IMG/VR virus record: IMGVR_UViG_3300028829_003908 | Coordinates: 1-61,356 of that record | Origin: a virus | DNA: 61,356 nucleotides | Strand: one strand, 5' to 3' | In this document: piece after piece, positions 30,971-38,046 of the stretch | Position numbering within the stretch: position 1 is the stretch's first letter | Layout of the letters: each line of letters starts with the position of its first letter | Translations under genes and position numbers: made by a program | Notes under the pieces: model-generated | Told to the model about the DNA's origin: nothing | Database searches by the model: none | The model's input: the letters and a program-made list of their open reading frames with translations, nothing else

Positions 30971-31612
30971 TTATAAGTGAAAATGACAAAAATCTTTATT
31001 CTGTTCGTAAAAAGTTTTTAGTTCTTGCCAGTTCTCAATATTTTTATAATTCTTTTGTGTATTTAATTTCACACCTGAAAAGAATCCAAATAAATCTTCA
31101 TAAAATAATACCCTTGAACTCTTGTGAGTTTTTAAATAATCAATAACCTTGATTGATGCTTCTTTAATACCTTGTATATCTTTTTTTATATCTTCAACCT
31201 CAATCTTTTCAATTTTTAACTTGTTGTATTCATCTTTTTCTTTTTGTGAAAATGTTTCAACTCCAAAATCTATTGGTCTCCACTTATCCGTTCTTTTTGC
31301 TAAGTTCAATGAAATTGCCTGTTCAAATACATTTCTTCTTGATAAGAAAAAAACAATATCATGAGAATCTATCAAATCTAAATGTATTTTTTTCTGTGGA
31401 TAAACACCATACTTGATTCCAAGAGTATTTTTATCTTTGTATATTCTATCTAAAAATTCTGTAATGCCTAAACTACTAACTAATCTATTGAGATTGTCAT
31501 CAAATCCAAACTCCCATACAAATTTCTTTGATGAAACTTCTTGTAGTGTTTTACAAAACTCTGTTGTTCCACTACGACTACAACCTAATACTAATACTTT
31601 ATTTAAATGCAT
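30971..31612 (-). CDS. Sulfotransferase-family protein (213 aa)
   Basis: LGCSRSGTTEF at residues 9-19 is the 5'-phosphosulfate-binding loop, and FFLSRRNVFEQAISLNLAKR near 90-110 matches the 3'-phosphate region (Arg and Ser). These bind PAPS and transfer sulfate to an acceptor such as a carbohydrate or Tyr. It overlaps the first 2OG oxygenase gene by 14 bases, so its target may be the same protein or glycan. The APS-kinase-like gene at 14 kb could supply the donor. Confidence 0.75.
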   Translation of the reverse strand: MHLNKVLVLGCSRSGTTEFCKTLQEVSSKKFVWEFGFDDNLNRLVSSLGITEFLDRIYKDKNTLGIKYGVYPQKKIHLDLIDSHDIVFFLSRRNVFEQAISLNLAKRTDKWRPIDFGVETFSQKEKDEYNKLKIEKIEVEDIKKDIQGIKEASIKVIDYLKTHKSSRVLFYEDLFGFFSGVKLNTQKNYKNIENWQELKTFYEQNKDFCHFHL

Positions 31613-32168
31613 TTCCCAACATCCAAGTTATTAATGAGTAACGAGTTCCTTTAGTGATTGGTGTTACTCTATGTGATAAGAACGCAGGAAATATTGTGAT
31701 ACTCCCTCTCTCTCTTGGTGCAGTATAATTTTTCCCACCTGAATCTTCGGTGATTCCAAATTCTAAATCTCCACCCTCGTATGTTGTTTCATCTGATAAC
31801 TGAACAATGGCAGTTAGTTTTCTTTTAGAAGTTTTCTTGGAACCACAATCAGTATGCCATTCATATTTACCACCAACATCATACTTTAAAAGTTTTACAT
31901 CTTCCATTTTCTGTATATCAAAATTCCAAATTGATAAGTTTGATAATTCAAAAATCATTTTTAGTTTATTTCTTAATTTATCATCTTTGAATATAACTTC
32001 TTTATTGTTACGAACCTTTTTATTTAAAATATTTTCATCATACTTTCCTGCAAGTTCTGAATCATTTGGATTTACTTCATCCAAATATTTTATCAAGTTA
32101 TCACATTGTGAATTAGATAAAAAATTCTCTTTATGTACTACAAATTTAAAATTATCATTTTGTATCAT
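31599..32168 (-). CDS. 2OG-Fe(II) oxygenase, prolyl-4-hydroxylase-like (1 of 4)
   Basis: The iron triad is H105-x-D107 (YEWHTD) and H166 (FLSHRV), with R176 for 2-oxoglutarate (KGTRYS). YEGGDLEF and SITIFPAFLSH match the phage P4H family. The start at 32168 overlaps the upstream stop (ATGA). It would hydroxylate a protein side chain, or less likely a base or sugar. All four copies keep the triad. Confidence 0.85.
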   Translation of the reverse strand: MIQNDNFKFVVHKENFLSNSQCDNLIKYLDEVNPNDSELAGKYDENILNKKVRNNKEVIFKDDKLRNKLKMIFELSNLSIWNFDIQKMEDVKLLKYDVGGKYEWHTDCGSKKTSKRKLTAIVQLSDETTYEGGDLEFGITEDSGGKNYTAPRERGSITIFPAFLSHRVTPITKGTRYSLITWMLGNAFK

Positions 32169-32776
32169 ACGAAAGTATCTCCTACTGCCCAACAAACACA
32201 AGAATATCTCTCACCCTTTGTAACTGGTTTAACCTCGTGTCCTGCAAATGCGGGATGTATAATTAATTTCCCCACTTCTGGTTCTATGATTGTTCCGTCA
32301 AACATTCTGAACTCACCACCCTCATAATCTTGTTGGTCGTTTAAAAATACAATACAAGTTAATTTTACTGAACTAAACTTTTGTATTGAGTGAAAATCCG
32401 CATGTGGATTATACCAATCACCTACATCATATCTGTGTGCCTGTACTCTATTTTCAAATATTCCACTTAAATTATATTTGAATGTTGTTATGTTTGCAAT
32501 TTGTATTGCACTCCAAAACTTATCAAGATACTTTTGCTCTTCTGTTCTACTAATGTTTAACATACAAACATTACTATCCTCTGTTGTATCCCAAGTCAAT
32601 GATGAACTATCTTCTCGGTTTTCAGTATAATGTCCTTTCTTTCTTGTTGAGGTCTTATCTATATGTTTTATCATATATTCACATTCATCCTTTGAAAAGA
32701 AATTAGGTCTTGTAATAAACCATCTAAAATCTTGGTTTATCTTCAACTCTTCCATGTTTATATTTTTATATTTCAT
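32165..32776 (-). CDS. 2OG-Fe(II) oxygenase, prolyl-4-hydroxylase-like (2 of 4)
   Basis: H125-x-D127 (YNPHADFH), H180 (FAGHEV) and R190 (KGERYS) complete the active site; YEGGEFRMF and KLIIHPAFAGH are family motifs. The N-terminal half differs strongly from the other copies, suggesting different substrates. It is joined by four-base overlaps on both sides. Confidence 0.85.
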   Translation of the reverse strand: MKYKNINMEELKINQDFRWFITRPNFFSKDECEYMIKHIDKTSTRKKGHYTENREDSSSLTWDTTEDSNVCMLNISRTEEQKYLDKFWSAIQIANITTFKYNLSGIFENRVQAHRYDVGDWYNPHADFHSIQKFSSVKLTCIVFLNDQQDYEGGEFRMFDGTIIEPEVGKLIIHPAFAGHEVKPVTKGERYSCVCWAVGDTFV

Positions 32777-33306
32777 TTAAAAGTATTGCCCCCTATGAAA
32801 GTTATTAATGTGTATCTATCCTTTTCACTAAATTGTAAAACTTTATGTGCTGCAAATGATGGAAATATAACTAACCTACCTTTTTTAGCATCTATTTTAT
32901 CGTTCCAAATTTGTAATCCACCATCCTCAAAATCATCATTTAAAAATATTAAACAAGATAATTTAGTACAACTATTAACAACACTTCCATCTCCTGCTGC
33001 AAAGTCTGTATGATAATTATCATCTGCTGTAAATGTATCTACTGAATATAACTTCCCACAAGAACCTTGAATACCTGATATATCAAATTTATATACCAAT
33101 GTGTTAGATAGTTTTACTACTTTCCATAGTCTATCTAATAATTTTTCATTTTCTATATCAACATTTTTACAATCATGCATATCACCCGAAACAAAATTAT
33201 CTTTTTTTACATTACTATCTATAAACTTAATTTCATCATCACACTCTTGAGATGATAAAAAGTTATCTCTAACTAAAAACCACTCAAAGTTTTTATTTGC
33301 AATCAC
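32773..33306 (-). CDS. 2OG-Fe(II) oxygenase, prolyl-4-hydroxylase-like (3 of 4)
   Basis: H99-x-D101 (NYHTDF), H154 (FAAHKV) and R164 (KDRYTL) are all present. It is the shortest copy (177 residues) and the most diverged, with VLQFSEKD replacing the VTPVTKG segment. The start is a GTG overlapping the preceding stop. Confidence 0.8.
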   Translation of the reverse strand: MIANKNFEWFLVRDNFLSSQECDDEIKFIDSNVKKDNFVSGDMHDCKNVDIENEKLLDRLWKVVKLSNTLVYKFDISGIQGSCGKLYSVDTFTADDNYHTDFAAGDGSVVNSCTKLSCLIFLNDDFEDGGLQIWNDKIDAKKGRLVIFPSFAAHKVLQFSEKDRYTLITFIGGNTFK

Positions 33307-33929
33307 CTAAAATGGTCTCCTACAAATAATTCTTGAATTACATGTCGTTTACCTTTAGTGACTGGTGTTACATTGTGTGATAAGAATGTTGGAAAGATTG
33401 TTAGTGAGCCTTTTTTCTTCTCCATAGTGTACCATTCTTTTGTATTTTTATCTTGGATACCGAATTGAACATCTCCACCCTCATATTCACTCGGGTCTGT
33501 TAATTGAATTATTCCTACTAACTTTCTTACTGAACAATAACCTGCATTAAAATCTGTATGCCAACCATAGAAACCACCATCTTGGTATTCTATTAGTTTT
33601 AACTCATCATGATAACCTCTGATATCAAATTTGAAAATATCTTTATTTACCATTTGAATAATCGTGTACATTTTCTTCTGTATCCAACCCCAATCATTGG
33701 CAGTTTTATCAGGTCTCATATCATTTAATGGTTGGTCTGTTAAATACCATTCTTTTGTTTGTCTGATTTCTGGTATGATTACACTACCCTTTTCATCACC
33801 AACACAACCTACAACTTGTTCTTCTGTATCTGTAACTTGTTTAATTATTTCATCACACTTTTCATGTGATAAGAAATTTGGTATTTGAATTGAATACTTG
33901 AAATTATTATTATGTTTATATTTTCCCAT
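33303..33929 (-). CDS. 2OG-Fe(II) oxygenase, prolyl-4-hydroxylase-like (4 of 4)
   Basis: H124-x-D126 (YGWHTDF), H185 (FLSHNV) and R195 (KGKRHV) form the active site; YEGGDVQFG and SLTIFPTFLSH match copy 1 closely, suggesting a recent duplication pair. It is first in the block, 22 bases after the three-Hint protein gene. Confidence 0.85.
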   Translation of the reverse strand: MGKYKHNNNFKYSIQIPNFLSHEKCDEIIKQVTDTEEQVVGCVGDEKGSVIIPEIRQTKEWYLTDQPLNDMRPDKTANDWGWIQKKMYTIIQMVNKDIFKFDIRGYHDELKLIEYQDGGFYGWHTDFNAGYCSVRKLVGIIQLTDPSEYEGGDVQFGIQDKNTKEWYTMEKKKGSLTIFPTFLSHNVTPVTKGKRHVIQELFVGDHFR

Positions 33930-33951: not shown

Positions 33952-36216
33952 TTAAGGTGAATTGTGAGTTACAATATCATGAGCAATAATAGTTCCATAA
34001 TCTTGTTCTAACAAGTTATATGTTATATATTCTCCCTCAATTTTATTGATTTCTACAATTTCTACCCATCCATCTATATCTCTAACATAATCACCAACTT
34101 TTATAATACCACCACCATCTTGTAAAAACATTGGATTGTTCTCAGCAATTGTAGACCAACCTTTATCTCTCAATAAAAATGGATGGTTATCAGTTGCTTT
34201 AATTGTTTGTCCACTTTCAACTTTGATTCCATAACAATTATCATGTAGTTTCTTTCTTATCATATTTACTTTACCCTCTTTAAACTCTTCAGTTTCTTCA
34301 TCGTATTGTAAAATACTTTCACCTAATTCTATCTCATCAATTCTTTTATAAACACCATCTCCCATATTAATAACTTGGTCTTCCATTAAACAAAATTTGT
34401 TATGAACTAATACATCATTTGCAAAATAGTTATGGTTTGTTGTTATTTCTAATGAATAAGTTTGGACTGGATTTATATCTTCAACAATATTAGTAATTTC
34501 TCTTTCCACTAATTTACCATCACGAAGTTCTAAACACTTATCACCAATTTCTAATTGATTTGATTCTATATCATATCGTTTTTTAGTCCACTCTGGTTTA
34601 TATGAACTCCAACCTTTTCCAACTACCCAATATGGATGGTCAAATGTATTCTTTGTCTTCTTATCACCAAAACTAATCTCTATAATATCTGCGTGTGTTG
34701 GTGTATCAATCGTGGTAACTTTACCTGTCTGAACTTCTTCATCTTTGAAATTATAATTCATAACTTCATCACCGATTTCAATTCTTTCAATAACTTTTGT
34801 AGTTCCATCACCCATAGTGATTGGTGTTCCTGCTACAAAACACTTTGGTGGAATATTGTGAACCAATATATTTGATTGGAAGTAAGTATCAATATCCTCT
34901 ACATCAAGTGCATACCAAAGTGTATCACCATCATGTTCTGTCTTTGATGTAACTTCTGTTTCATTACCACTTGTGTCTAAAAGATAATCTCCAGTTCTAA
35001 TAGCATCTGTTGTTATCCATTCCCAAGTATCTCCTTGTTTTACAAAATATCTAATATCACTACTAGCCTGTTGTAAATTATAAGGTGCTTTAATACTACC
35101 ATTGATTAAATAATATCCATAATTTTCGGTGTTCATTACATCTACAACAATAGAACCTTGTGTTGTAGAACCACTTAAATCTGTTGTGGTGTAAGATAAA
35201 TAATCTTTTGATTCATCTGGCATTCCATATGGTTGATAACTTAAAACAACATCCCCAACTTCAACATCTTGAACCTGTTTTGTTGAACCATCATACATTT
35301 TAATTAAACTACCACTCGCAGATGTTTTTGCTTTTTGCCCTATATAATCCCAACTATCTGTTGCTGTAGGTTTTAGTTTAACATTTCTACCAGAATCTCT
35401 ATCACCAAACACAATAACCTTTTCTGGTGTCATCATAAACTCTATTTTACCCACACCCAAATGTGATTGTCCATCTCTGTAACTTCCACTATGAACAATA
35501 TATTCTTCTATCAAAGAACCACTATCAACTCCATTTTGATAACTTGAACTTGTTGAATTGTATGTGTAAAAACCAATTTTATTAGTTTGAACACTCGAAT
35601 CTTGAGTTGCAGTTTTAACTACAAAATCTGGATAATTATTATTTGGTGTATAATTATCCTTATCAAATGATGGTATCAAAGAAGAACTAAATGGTGAATT
35701 ACCCAAAAATGTTCTAAATGTATTTTTATCAAATGAACCACTAACTATACTTTTTAAATTATCATCACTATACCAAGGCGTTTGCATCCATAAATGAAAC
35801 TTATCTAAGTGGTCTTCGTCTCCTCTTTGTAAAAAGTATGTTCTTGTTAGACTATCACCATATTCAAAATTAGTCGTTATATCATGTCGTGCAAAACTAG
35901 CACTAATTAATGGTTGTTGAAGTGTTGATGGATTTTTTTTACCATTGTGATTAACTCCATAAACATAAGTAGTCGTGTATCCTTTATCATTTACATAATC
36001 TGATATTACATCGAAGTAACTACCTGTCTGTATTGCTGCACTACCAACAATTCCAATATTGGTATTCATTTCTATAAATTTTACTTCGTTGGAACCACTT
36101 TCTATAAGGTAGTCTATACCACCAAGAATTCCAGCATTTGATAATGAAGGCCAATTACCTGCACTACCTGTAATATGATTAATAAATTCTGTTGTTCTTG
36201 TTATCTGTGTTGACAT
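33952..36216 (-). CDS. Protein with three tandem Hint (intein-like) modules (754 aa)
   Basis: Residues 1-295 are an unrecognised Ser/Thr/Tyr-rich domain; KFIEMNTNIG near 46 and PDFVVK near 196 weakly recall ATP-grasp motifs. Three Hint modules follow: about 301-454 (Ser start, ends ILVHN), 459-606 (starts CFVAGTPI, TFDHPYW as block B, ends VLVHN) and 609-752 (starts CLMEDQ, TDNHPF as block B, ends VTHN). Only Ser-Pro follows the last Asn. Residues after each HN are Ile, Lys and Ser, as in bacterial intein-like domains that cleave rather than splice. Module 1 lacks the block B His. It adjoins four oxygenases, a GNAT and a radical SAM gene. Confidence 0.8.
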   Translation of the reverse strand: MSTQITRTTEFINHITGSAGNWPSLSNAGILGGIDYLIESGSNEVKFIEMNTNIGIVGSAAIQTGSYFDVISDYVNDKGYTTTYVYGVNHNGKKNPSTLQQPLISASFARHDITTNFEYGDSLTRTYFLQRGDEDHLDKFHLWMQTPWYSDDNLKSIVSGSFDKNTFRTFLGNSPFSSSLIPSFDKDNYTPNNNYPDFVVKTATQDSSVQTNKIGFYTYNSTSSSYQNGVDSGSLIEEYIVHSGSYRDGQSHLGVGKIEFMMTPEKVIVFGDRDSGRNVKLKPTATDSWDYIGQKAKTSASGSLIKMYDGSTKQVQDVEVGDVVLSYQPYGMPDESKDYLSYTTTDLSGSTTQGSIVVDVMNTENYGYYLINGSIKAPYNLQQASSDIRYFVKQGDTWEWITTDAIRTGDYLLDTSGNETEVTSKTEHDGDTLWYALDVEDIDTYFQSNILVHNIPPKCFVAGTPITMGDGTTKVIERIEIGDEVMNYNFKDEEVQTGKVTTIDTPTHADIIEISFGDKKTKNTFDHPYWVVGKGWSSYKPEWTKKRYDIESNQLEIGDKCLELRDGKLVEREITNIVEDINPVQTYSLEITTNHNYFANDVLVHNKFCLMEDQVINMGDGVYKRIDEIELGESILQYDEETEEFKEGKVNMIRKKLHDNCYGIKVESGQTIKATDNHPFLLRDKGWSTIAENNPMFLQDGGGIIKVGDYVRDIDGWVEIVEINKIEGEYITYNLLEQDYGTIIAHDIVTHNSP

Positions 36217-36257: not shown

Positions 36258-36698
36258 TCAAATACCATCAATTTCGGTGAAAATATAATCTTTTTTGACT
36301 GATAATGCTGGTGTGTTCCACCAATCTAATTTAATTGAAGCAGTATTTAATCCTCGTTTTTTGATTTCATTACACCTTAACCAAACCAAATCTTTTCCTA
36401 ACCCTTTGCCTCTGTGTTCTGAAAACACATAACGATTACATAAATAAGGATATTTTTTATCCCAATCTATAAAACACCAACCACCCTCAAGTAAATAAAA
36501 TGTGAAATTGTTTTGCAATCTATCTTTCAAATCAGACATATCCCACTCTTTCCAAGGTCTTCCAAATGAATCTTGAAAGTTATTTAATTCCTTTTCAATA
36601 GTTTCTAATTGATAAGGATTAAATTTAAACTCATCAAACTCTAAATAATTATGAGTTTCTCGTGGTTCATAATCAGTTAAATCTATTTTGTAATACAC
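36258..36698 (-). CDS. GNAT-like acetyltransferase (146 aa)
   Basis: RYVFSEHRGKGLGKDLVWLRCNEIKKRGL is the acetyl-CoA-binding motif (R/Q-x2-G-x-G/A), followed by a strand and TPALSVKKDYIF, the GNAT C-terminal end. The preferred start is a GTG at 36698 that overlaps the zinc-ribbon stop by one to three bases with GAG upstream; an ATG at 36746 would overlap that gene by 49 bases. The substrate could be a protein, peptide or sugar amine. Confidence 0.65.
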   Translation of the reverse strand: MYYKIDLTDYEPRETHNYLEFDEFKFNPYQLETIEKELNNFQDSFGRPWKEWDMSDLKDRLQNNFTFYLLEGGWCFIDWDKKYPYLCNRYVFSEHRGKGLGKDLVWLRCNEIKKRGLNTASIKLDWWNTPALSVKKDYIFTEIDGI

Positions 36699-36934
36699 TA
36701 TTGCTCTGCAATTTGATTCATCATGTTCTTTGGTATTGAACCACAATTACCACATGCAAATACTTGTATTGGTACGATTGCTTCTTTACCTGTTGGTGAT
36801 ACTAATGGTGATATTCTTTTCAGAAAGAATGATTGTATGAAAGATGCGTTTCCACACTCTTCACAAACTATTGTTTCTGTATCACTAATATCCACAGGTT
36901 GTGGTGGTTCTTGATATTTTCTATCTTTACTCAT
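36698..36934 (-). CDS. Small double-CxxC zinc-binding protein (78 aa)
   Basis: CEECGN near residue 24 and FACGNCG near 60 form one zinc ribbon. Similar small zinc-ribbon proteins occur in T4-like marine phages, where the role is not known to me. It is coupled by ATGA to the radical SAM gene. Confidence 0.65.
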   Translation of the reverse strand: MSKDRKYQEPPQPVDISDTETIVCEECGNASFIQSFFLKRISPLVSPTGKEAIVPIQVFACGNCGSIPKNMMNQIAEQ

Positions 36935-38046
36935 GTTAACTCCTCTATATCTAAATTATCTGTAATAAGTACATTCTTATCTAACTTTAACATTTTTTTA
37001 TATTCTTCTAAAAACAAATTATAATTAGGATGTGTTCTCTTAAATATCTGTCTTTGTTCAACTATTTCCTTTGAACTCACACCCCAATCAGTAAATTGTC
37101 CAAACTCTACTTCAACTATGGCATCTGAACCATAACTTAAATCATCAATTAATTTTACAAAACCACTCATCTCTTTATAATTTAAATCTTGACAAACAAA
37201 TGATGTTCTAATAAATTTTAAATTAGGAATATCTTCAAATATAAACTTTAAGTTTTTCTGAAGTGTTTCCCACTTACCACCTTTTCTTACTATTTCGTAA
37301 GTTTCTTTTGTACATGCATCAATACTAATATGACAAGTTAATCTTGGAATATCGTGTAAGTTTTTAAGTTTATTCCAATGTGTTCTTGACCAACTATTAG
37401 CATTTGTATGTAAATGTAAATTAACTAAATTTGGAAAATCTTTAGTGTTAATCATTTTCAATAAATCTCTAAATACATCTGCTCCAAATGCATCACCTGA
37501 GTTAGTTATATAAACCTCGTGAGTATCACATATAGGTTCTCCCATAATTAACTCTTGTATCTTATAAGTTTGTTCTCTATCTTTACCCTCTGTTTTAAAG
37601 AAATCTTTTCTACAAGATGGACAAGCTAAATTACAACTTCTATCGTGAGCAAATGTAACACTTTCAGGCCCATAAGGTAAATCAATAGTTTTGTTTTCTA
37701 TTATATTTTGATACTTTTTCTTTCCATTAGGATTTATTTCTTTTGCATCCCATAACTTTTCAAATGTTGATTCATCATATATTGGAAAGTATGCTGAATA
37801 ATCCTCTTCACCTTTATTCCACTTTTGAATGTAAGGACATAAGTTTTCATCACACATAGAGAAATCACCTTTGTGCATACTTCTTCTTAATCTTTTTGCG
37901 TAATTACTATTCCAAATATCATCCCATTTATCTGTTAAGATATTACCAGCTGGTTTTTCTATCCAACTCGTACAACACTGCCAAACATCTCCGTTATCTC
38001 TTATTTCGGCATATCGAAATGGTGATACACAAAATCCTTTTCTCAC
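36931..38046 (-). CDS. Radical SAM enzyme with N-terminal Cys cluster (371 aa)
   Basis: CNLACPSC near residue 138 is the CxxxCxxC iron-sulfur motif, followed by EVYITNSGDAFG and HISIDACTKETYE, typical of the SAM barrel. The N-terminus carries CVSPF, WQCCTSW and CDENLCPY, a SPASM-like extra cysteine set placed before the core. Such enzymes often modify peptides. Within this cassette it may act on the Hint protein or its product; a role in making a modified nucleotide is also possible. Confidence 0.8.
   Translation of the reverse strand: MRKGFCVSPFRYAEIRDNGDVWQCCTSWIEKPAGNILTDKWDDIWNSNYAKRLRRSMHKGDFSMCDENLCPYIQKWNKGEEDYSAYFPIYDESTFEKLWDAKEINPNGKKKYQNIIENKTIDLPYGPESVTFAHDRSCNLACPSCRKDFFKTEGKDREQTYKIQELIMGEPICDTHEVYITNSGDAFGADVFRDLLKMINTKDFPNLVNLHLHTNANSWSRTHWNKLKNLHDIPRLTCHISIDACTKETYEIVRKGGKWETLQKNLKFIFEDIPNLKFIRTSFVCQDLNYKEMSGFVKLIDDLSYGSDAIVEVEFGQFTDWGVSSKEIVEQRQIFKRTHPNYNLFLEEYKKMLKLDKNVLITDNLDIEELT

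Follow-up and report, generated by a model that had tools for sequence, protein, structure and literature searches.

How is a phage protein to be read in which three Hint modules follow one another end to end, and what might such an array do to the domain in front of it? The question is raised by a gene at 33952..36216 (-) of the window, i.e., the whole stretch of 61,356 nucleotides analyzed here (IMG/VR virus record IMGVR_UViG_3300028829_003908, positions 1 to 61,356), the source of which is an uncultured T4-like phage. The gene encodes 754 aa from an ATG start common to its relatives, and its extent is matched by full-length orthologues. From the N-terminus, and throughout on the minus strand, the product comprises a domain with a predicted ATP-grasp-like fold (aa 1-294, 35335..36216), the catalytically degenerate Hint module 1 (M1, aa 298-454, 34855..35325), the linker I455-P-P-K458 (34843..34854), the BIL-like module 2 (M2, type X, aa 459-606, 34399..34842; C459, T524-H527, H595, H605-N606), the linker K607-F608 (34393..34398) and the intein-like module 3 (M3, type Y, aa 609-752, 33961..34392; C609, T675-H678, H751-N752), behind which a tail of two residues, S753-P754 (33955..33960), precedes the stop codon. 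The three HN pairs (453-454, 605-606, and 751-752) are followed by I455, K607 and S753. On the whole protein, Pfam placed PT-HINT (E 3e-15), Intein_splicing (4.5e-13) and Hint (1.1e-10) in three stretches each, and every module also matched when searched alone, in agreement with the sequence-only reading, which had proposed three successive Hint modules, each closed by a His-Asn pair (N454, N606 and N752) and followed by Ile, Lys and Ser, with IPPK, KF and SP as linkers; the profile searches returned Hint-type families, TIGR01445/TIGR01443 and solved BILs. The three modules are not a chance pattern, because orthologues retain all of them and purifying selection acts on each (dN/dS 0.13-0.26).

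The surroundings of the gene were compared in 23 loci, with flanks counted where present: the Hint gene is preceded by a gp44-like clamp loader gene, a small gene and usually a GNAT gene, and followed by 2OG-Fe(II) oxygenase genes and a gp62-like clamp loader gene. In the window, the upstream neighbor is a GNAT acetyltransferase-like gene (36258..36746, -), which is conserved next to the Hint gene, while four consecutive 2OG-Fe(II) oxygenase genes, the number of which varies in relatives, lie downstream (31599..33929, -), and a SPASM/radical SAM protein (36931-38046) is encoded upstream of the Hint gene, flanked by the clamp loader gene and the small gene. Genes for UvsX, a gp32-like protein, a DnaB-like helicase and a T4-type DNA polymerase are also found in the window, with the closest polymerase among cultured phages sharing 43% identity. 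Additional genes in relatives encode a radical SAM protein or an alcohol dehydrogenase; in two relatives (L067, 9541-11589; L025, 4266-6500) a radical SAM gene of 680-745 aa lies between the oxygenases and the gp62-like gene, and the L067 copy has a weak B12-binding match.

The domain in front of the array was modeled together with M1 (AlphaFold, residues 1-458, 48 orthologues; mean pLDDT 82.9, pTM 0.83). Foldseek matched the N-terminal part of the model to YgiC (7uka, E 1.8e-7), yeast glutathione synthetase (GSS, 1m0w, 1.9e-6), more weakly to other eukaryotic glutathione synthetases, and to trypanothione synthetase (1e-3), all of them ATP-grasp enzymes of one circularly permuted group, with TM about 0.3. 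D35, E49, N51, K164, and E237 are invariant in 85 relatives and K201 is kept in 81 (R in 4), and in an alignment made by eye these residues succeed one another as the YgiC motifs (D, ExN, VVK, E) do. In PHROG, 4/29 members weakly matched an S6 glutaminyl transferase, itself an ATP-grasp enzyme, at E 0.004 at best. Pfam returned no significant match for the domain, and none to its ATP-grasp families, profile comparison with YgiC/YjfC/Gss gave a hhalign probability of 0.1, and Smith-Waterman z-scores were -0.7 to 2.6; as sequence comparison lends no support, the domain is assigned at the level of the predicted fold, as ATP-grasp-like with a putative activity. The VIA-align list was filled by Hint chains. 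No homologue of the domain was found in 50,697 phage records or in genome_contigs.

By the features that define the Hint superfamily, namely the fold and the block A/B/F/G motifs, M1 belongs to it through its modeled fold, and M2 and M3 through profiles, a full-length AlphaFold run with 12 sequences having reached a pLDDT of 36. In VIA-align, residues 295-458 superpose on Tetrahymena BIL2 (6y75) with Z 18.5 and 1.8 A over 137 residues, on the C. thermocellum BIL 2lwy with Z 16.9 and on Hedgehog with Z 15.7, and M1 alone reaches 27.7 bits against PT-HINT, exactly the Pfam cut-off. M1 had been thought to begin with Ser, to lack the block B His and perhaps to be inactive or regulated. The superposition instead places Thr298 on Cys1 of inteins and on Cys258 of Hedgehog, and in 85 relatives this position is occupied by T (43), S (37) or I (5); the other two points stood, since block B has no TxxH, Asp443 takes the position of the block F His, and as it has neither a conserved nucleophile at its start nor the block B His, M1 is probably inactive at its N side, i.e., a dead Hint. 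Its HN is invariant (85/85), and the residue after it is Ile or Leu in 84/84. The closest relatives of M1 outside the family are the C-terminal ends of proteins of Phage NCTB (35% identity) and fHe-Yen9-02 (26%), which retain Cys1 and the block B His, so that M1 has probably lost both. In Phage NCTB, the M1-like Hint (L177, 4989-5462), with intact Cys1 and TQQH, forms the end of a protein of 1304 aa encoded in a cluster of tail-fibre genes, and a second intein-domain gene is located nearby.

M2 and M3 present a different picture at the level of motifs. M2 alone matches PT-HINT (31.4 bits), its end matches TIGR01443 intein_Cterm of NCBIfam (15.7 bits, cut-off 15.6), and it matches solved BIL domains with E about 2e-12, BIL2 being the best. 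M3 alone matches Intein_splicing (37.6 bits, cut-off 35.8) and TIGR01445 intein_Nterm (33.5 bits, cut-off 24.5), and its match to inteins in a sequence search is weak (E 0.002). Across relatives, none of the type X, Y, Z and W modules examined lacks Cys1, and HN ends every module of types X, Y and W; block B reads TxxH in types Y and W and in the majority of types X and Z. The +1 residue is Lys after X (40/40) and W (3/3), Ser or Thr after Y (23/23) and Glu after Z and Z' (63/63), these being counts of related sequences rather than of independent events. Type-A BILs, which end in HN and have no +1 nucleophile, mainly cleave (PMC4031507; PMC7664689), and M2, which like all type X modules has Cys1, a C-terminal His-Asn and no Cys, Ser or Thr at +1, is by its motifs most likely a BIL of this kind. 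By the same token, M3 would be a class 1 mini-intein, with Cys1, TxxH, HN and Ser or Thr at +1 in 23/23 type Y modules, except that its C-side flank is just two residues; an intein interrupts a functional host protein and has an extein on either side, whereas M3 is followed by SP and, in four-Hint relatives, by another Hint. Since every relative has Ser or Thr at this place, M3 may also splice. The setting of a polymorphic toxin PT-HINT is not found, as two residues and no toxin domain follow M3, nor is that of a BUBL protein, as the linkers are IPPK and KF and the Pfam scan of the protein contains no ubiquitin-like domain. M2 also matches the Pfam domain AXH of ataxin-1/HBP1 (E 1.6e-23 in the whole protein, 1.9e-18 alone) and ataxin-1 structures (E 1e-8), and further type X and Z' modules match AXH as well, which suggests a common ancestor of the animal AXH domain and Hint domains; a literature search for such an ancestry found no paper.

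Scans of viral contigs yielded 84 distinct complete orthologues, which at the same T4-like locus hold one, two, three or four Hints of five module types. M1 stands alone in 11, M1-Z is the most frequent form (30), followed by M1-X-Z (17), M1-X-Y-Z (11) and the M1-X-Y arrangement of the window (9), while M1-X-Y-Z' (3), M1-W-Z (2) and a single M1-W, the last module of which is apparently frameshifted, are rarer. Median identities are 19-41% between types and at least 43% within a type, hence the array does not stem from recent duplication. Linkers between modules measure 2-10 residues. Type Z is the last module in 60/84 and leaves 4-8 residues to the stop; it keeps Cys1 and the block B His, and SD replaces its HN, so that of the features of a Hog domain it has these two and the missing C-terminal Asn, while a sterol-recognition region is absent. 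The 11 one-Hint orthologues stop 4-5 residues after the HN of M1 (LPPK, IPPK, IPKR, LPKR, IPKM, IPGKE), almost at the point where Cys1 of M2 would begin; their next gene is 1-25 nt away, and no Hint remnant was found within 700 nt downstream. On well-supported branches, a tree of residues up to the HN of M1 calls for four or more switches between the one-Hint state and other architectures, with the one-Hint L080, L124 and L147 inside the M1-Z clade, and thus one-Hint forms have arisen several times. It follows from their existence that the protein can do without everything past about residue 458. Median dN/dS is 0.25 for the N-terminal domain, 0.26 for M1, 0.145 for X and 0.134 for Y, as well as 0.24 for Z in the M1-Z set, i.e., the strongest purifying selection in the gene acts on X and Y. 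Two single contigs stand out: L015 (1927-4182) has the same DNA sequence as L041 (M1-X-Y-Z) as far as about codon 500 and from about codon 600 shares 97-100% identity with L012 (M1-X-Y), a switch inside module X that suggests module exchange by recombination, in one metagenome contig that could itself be a chimera; in L095 (904-3060), the final Hint module runs out into an unrelated tail, as though the reading frame had shifted, which may reflect decay or an assembly error.

From the anatomy, the folds of the N-terminal domain and M1, the conservation of catalytic residues, selection, orthology and the variable number of modules, we infer the following cleavage steps, their order and the enzymatic role of the product. 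M1 would be an old Hint in which the N-side chemistry was lost and which has become a lasting component of the enzyme unit. M2 would act as a type-A BIL, with an acyl shift at K458-C459 resolved by hydrolysis or aminolysis, and with Asn cyclisation at N606, and M3 would cut at F608-C609 and N752-S753, or splice SP to the part that precedes it. The array, with M2 and M3 as its catalytic modules, would in this way remove itself and leave residues 1-458 (domain, M1 and IPPK), which is the form that one-Hint relatives encode directly; these relatives would then predict a mature product ending at PPK. We hold this course to be probable, if by a modest measure, and removal of the array to be the most economical reading, since Cys1 and HN are conserved, X and Y have the lowest dN/dS and one-Hint orthologues stop at HN-[IL]P(P)K/R. 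Three observations speak against it, however: M3 lies two residues before the stop, so its C-side reaction would release almost no product; the HN of M1 is invariant (85/85) in an otherwise degenerate module, which self-removal explains poorly; and the ATP-grasp match has a low TM (about 0.3), without sequence support. As one to four Hints occur at the same place in related phages, the array has the look of an exchangeable self-cleaving tail.

The invariant Lys behind type X allows another outcome. After cyclisation of N606, the alpha- or epsilon-amine of the +1 Lys could attack the thioester at K458, so that M2 is excised while a peptide or isopeptide bond connects the sequences on either side of it. 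A like reaction is reported for Tetrahymena BIL2, in which splicing proceeds via an isopeptide bond with a lysine in the domain downstream (PMC8616854). The case for ligation as a serious rival comes from this chemistry, from the retention of Lys in 40/40 X modules, although these diverge to 43% identity, and in 3/3 W modules, and from BIL2, which among solved structures is the closest to M2 in sequence; yet the BIL2 lysine is located in a downstream ubiquitin-like domain, whereas here it is merely the next residue and may be kept for other reasons, and we consider ligation unlikely. Somewhat less credible to us is a broader view, in which the array is a chain of Hints with each reaction set by the following residue: M1 would be dead, M2 a BIL that uses Lys to form a peptide or isopeptide bond, M3 a mini-intein that uses Ser/Thr, and the end module of relatives Hog-like. 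Recombination would then swap the chain and thereby alter the partner of the enzyme's C-terminus or the manner in which the two are linked. Conjugation as in Hedgehog, where an outside nucleophile (an amine or small molecule) would attack the Cys1 thioester and the enzyme would become attached through its C-terminal residue, is doubtful indeed: type Z, with Cys1, a block B His and SD for HN, has retained that half of the chemistry which is Hog-like, and YgiC-type enzymes ligate amines to peptides, going by the RefSeq name of ygiC, but behind Z come 4-8 residues and no region resembling a sterol-recognition region, the window protein has no type Z module, and some inteins use a C-terminal Asp (PMC7664689), so that type Z need not be Hog-like at all.

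That the modules are inert, serving as structural or recombination cassettes without catalysis, would suit their very labile number and type and the recombinant-like L015 with its switch inside X, but it sits badly with conserved catalytic residues and with the lowest dN/dS of the gene in X and Y, and is improbable in our estimation. By far the least credible is a cut by M1 at its N side that would free a 295-residue domain, an outcome the sequence-only reading had envisaged. Thr or Ser occupies position 1 in 80/85, yet Ile does so in 5/85, position 1 of M1 holds no conserved nucleophile, the block B and block F His are absent, and 11 one-Hint orthologues keep domain and M1 fused, from which it follows that the released unit would be 1-454 or 1-458. 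Thus, the part of that reading that gave way is the 295-residue release, while three Hints, a degenerate M1 with a clear Hint fold in the model of 1-458 (Z 18.5 to BIL2), and BIL-type cleavage as a likelier course for M2 than ordinary splicing, there being no +1 nucleophile, were upheld, the last of these at the level of motifs.

Hint domains are normally single or separated by other domains, and several inteins in one protein as well as BILs in polyubiquitin genes are already known. Among 50,697 phage records no head-to-tail Hint array was found, and literature searches for tandem Hint modules and for ATP-grasp and Hint in one protein found no paper. Two matches were set aside: a tandem-like one in a 484-kb phage (L255, 2317-6477, LR756508.1) is a portal-like protein, apparently with three inteins, in which ordinary inteins are separated by host sequence, and a multi-place match in a Ruminococcus phage lies in a 266-aa ORF, too short for an array.

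Compared with known systems, each part of the protein has a counterpart from which it also departs. The predicted N-terminal fold resembles that of YgiC, glutathionylspermidine synthetase and eukaryotic glutathione synthetase, with D35 and E49-x-N51 placed by eye as the Mg-binding D and ExN, but support at the sequence level, a glycine-rich loop and an Arg beside D35 are missing, and those enzymes carry no Hint. M1 resembles the C-terminal Hints of the NCTB 1304-aa protein and of a virion protein of Yersinia phage fHe-Yen9-02, which likewise end in HN and a short tail, whereas the latter keep Cys1 and the block B His, are single and lie in tail genes. M3 shares Cys1, TxNH, HN and a +1 Ser/Thr with class 1 mini-inteins, yet its C-extein is only SP, and it is C-terminal rather than at a conserved site of a host enzyme. 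Like type-A BILs, e.g., the C. thermocellum BIL (2lwy), M2 combines the Hint fold, to which profiles assign it, with Cys1, TxxH, HN and no Cys, Ser or Thr at +1; unlike these BILs, which reside in variable bacterial proteins, it stands among different end-to-end modules in a phage enzyme and has a fixed +1 Lys. BIL2 of Tetrahymena BUBL1 (6y75, 6tmm) is the best sequence match of M2 and the best fold match of M1, and BUBL genes likewise place BILs among other processed domains, but there the BILs are separated by ubiquitin-like domains, while the present protein has none and the family has linkers of 2-10 residues. In contrast to all of these, one orthologous locus here holds one to four end-to-end Hints with a different conserved chemistry in each, a natural series for how inteins, BILs and Hog domains interconvert and for what Hint arrays do.
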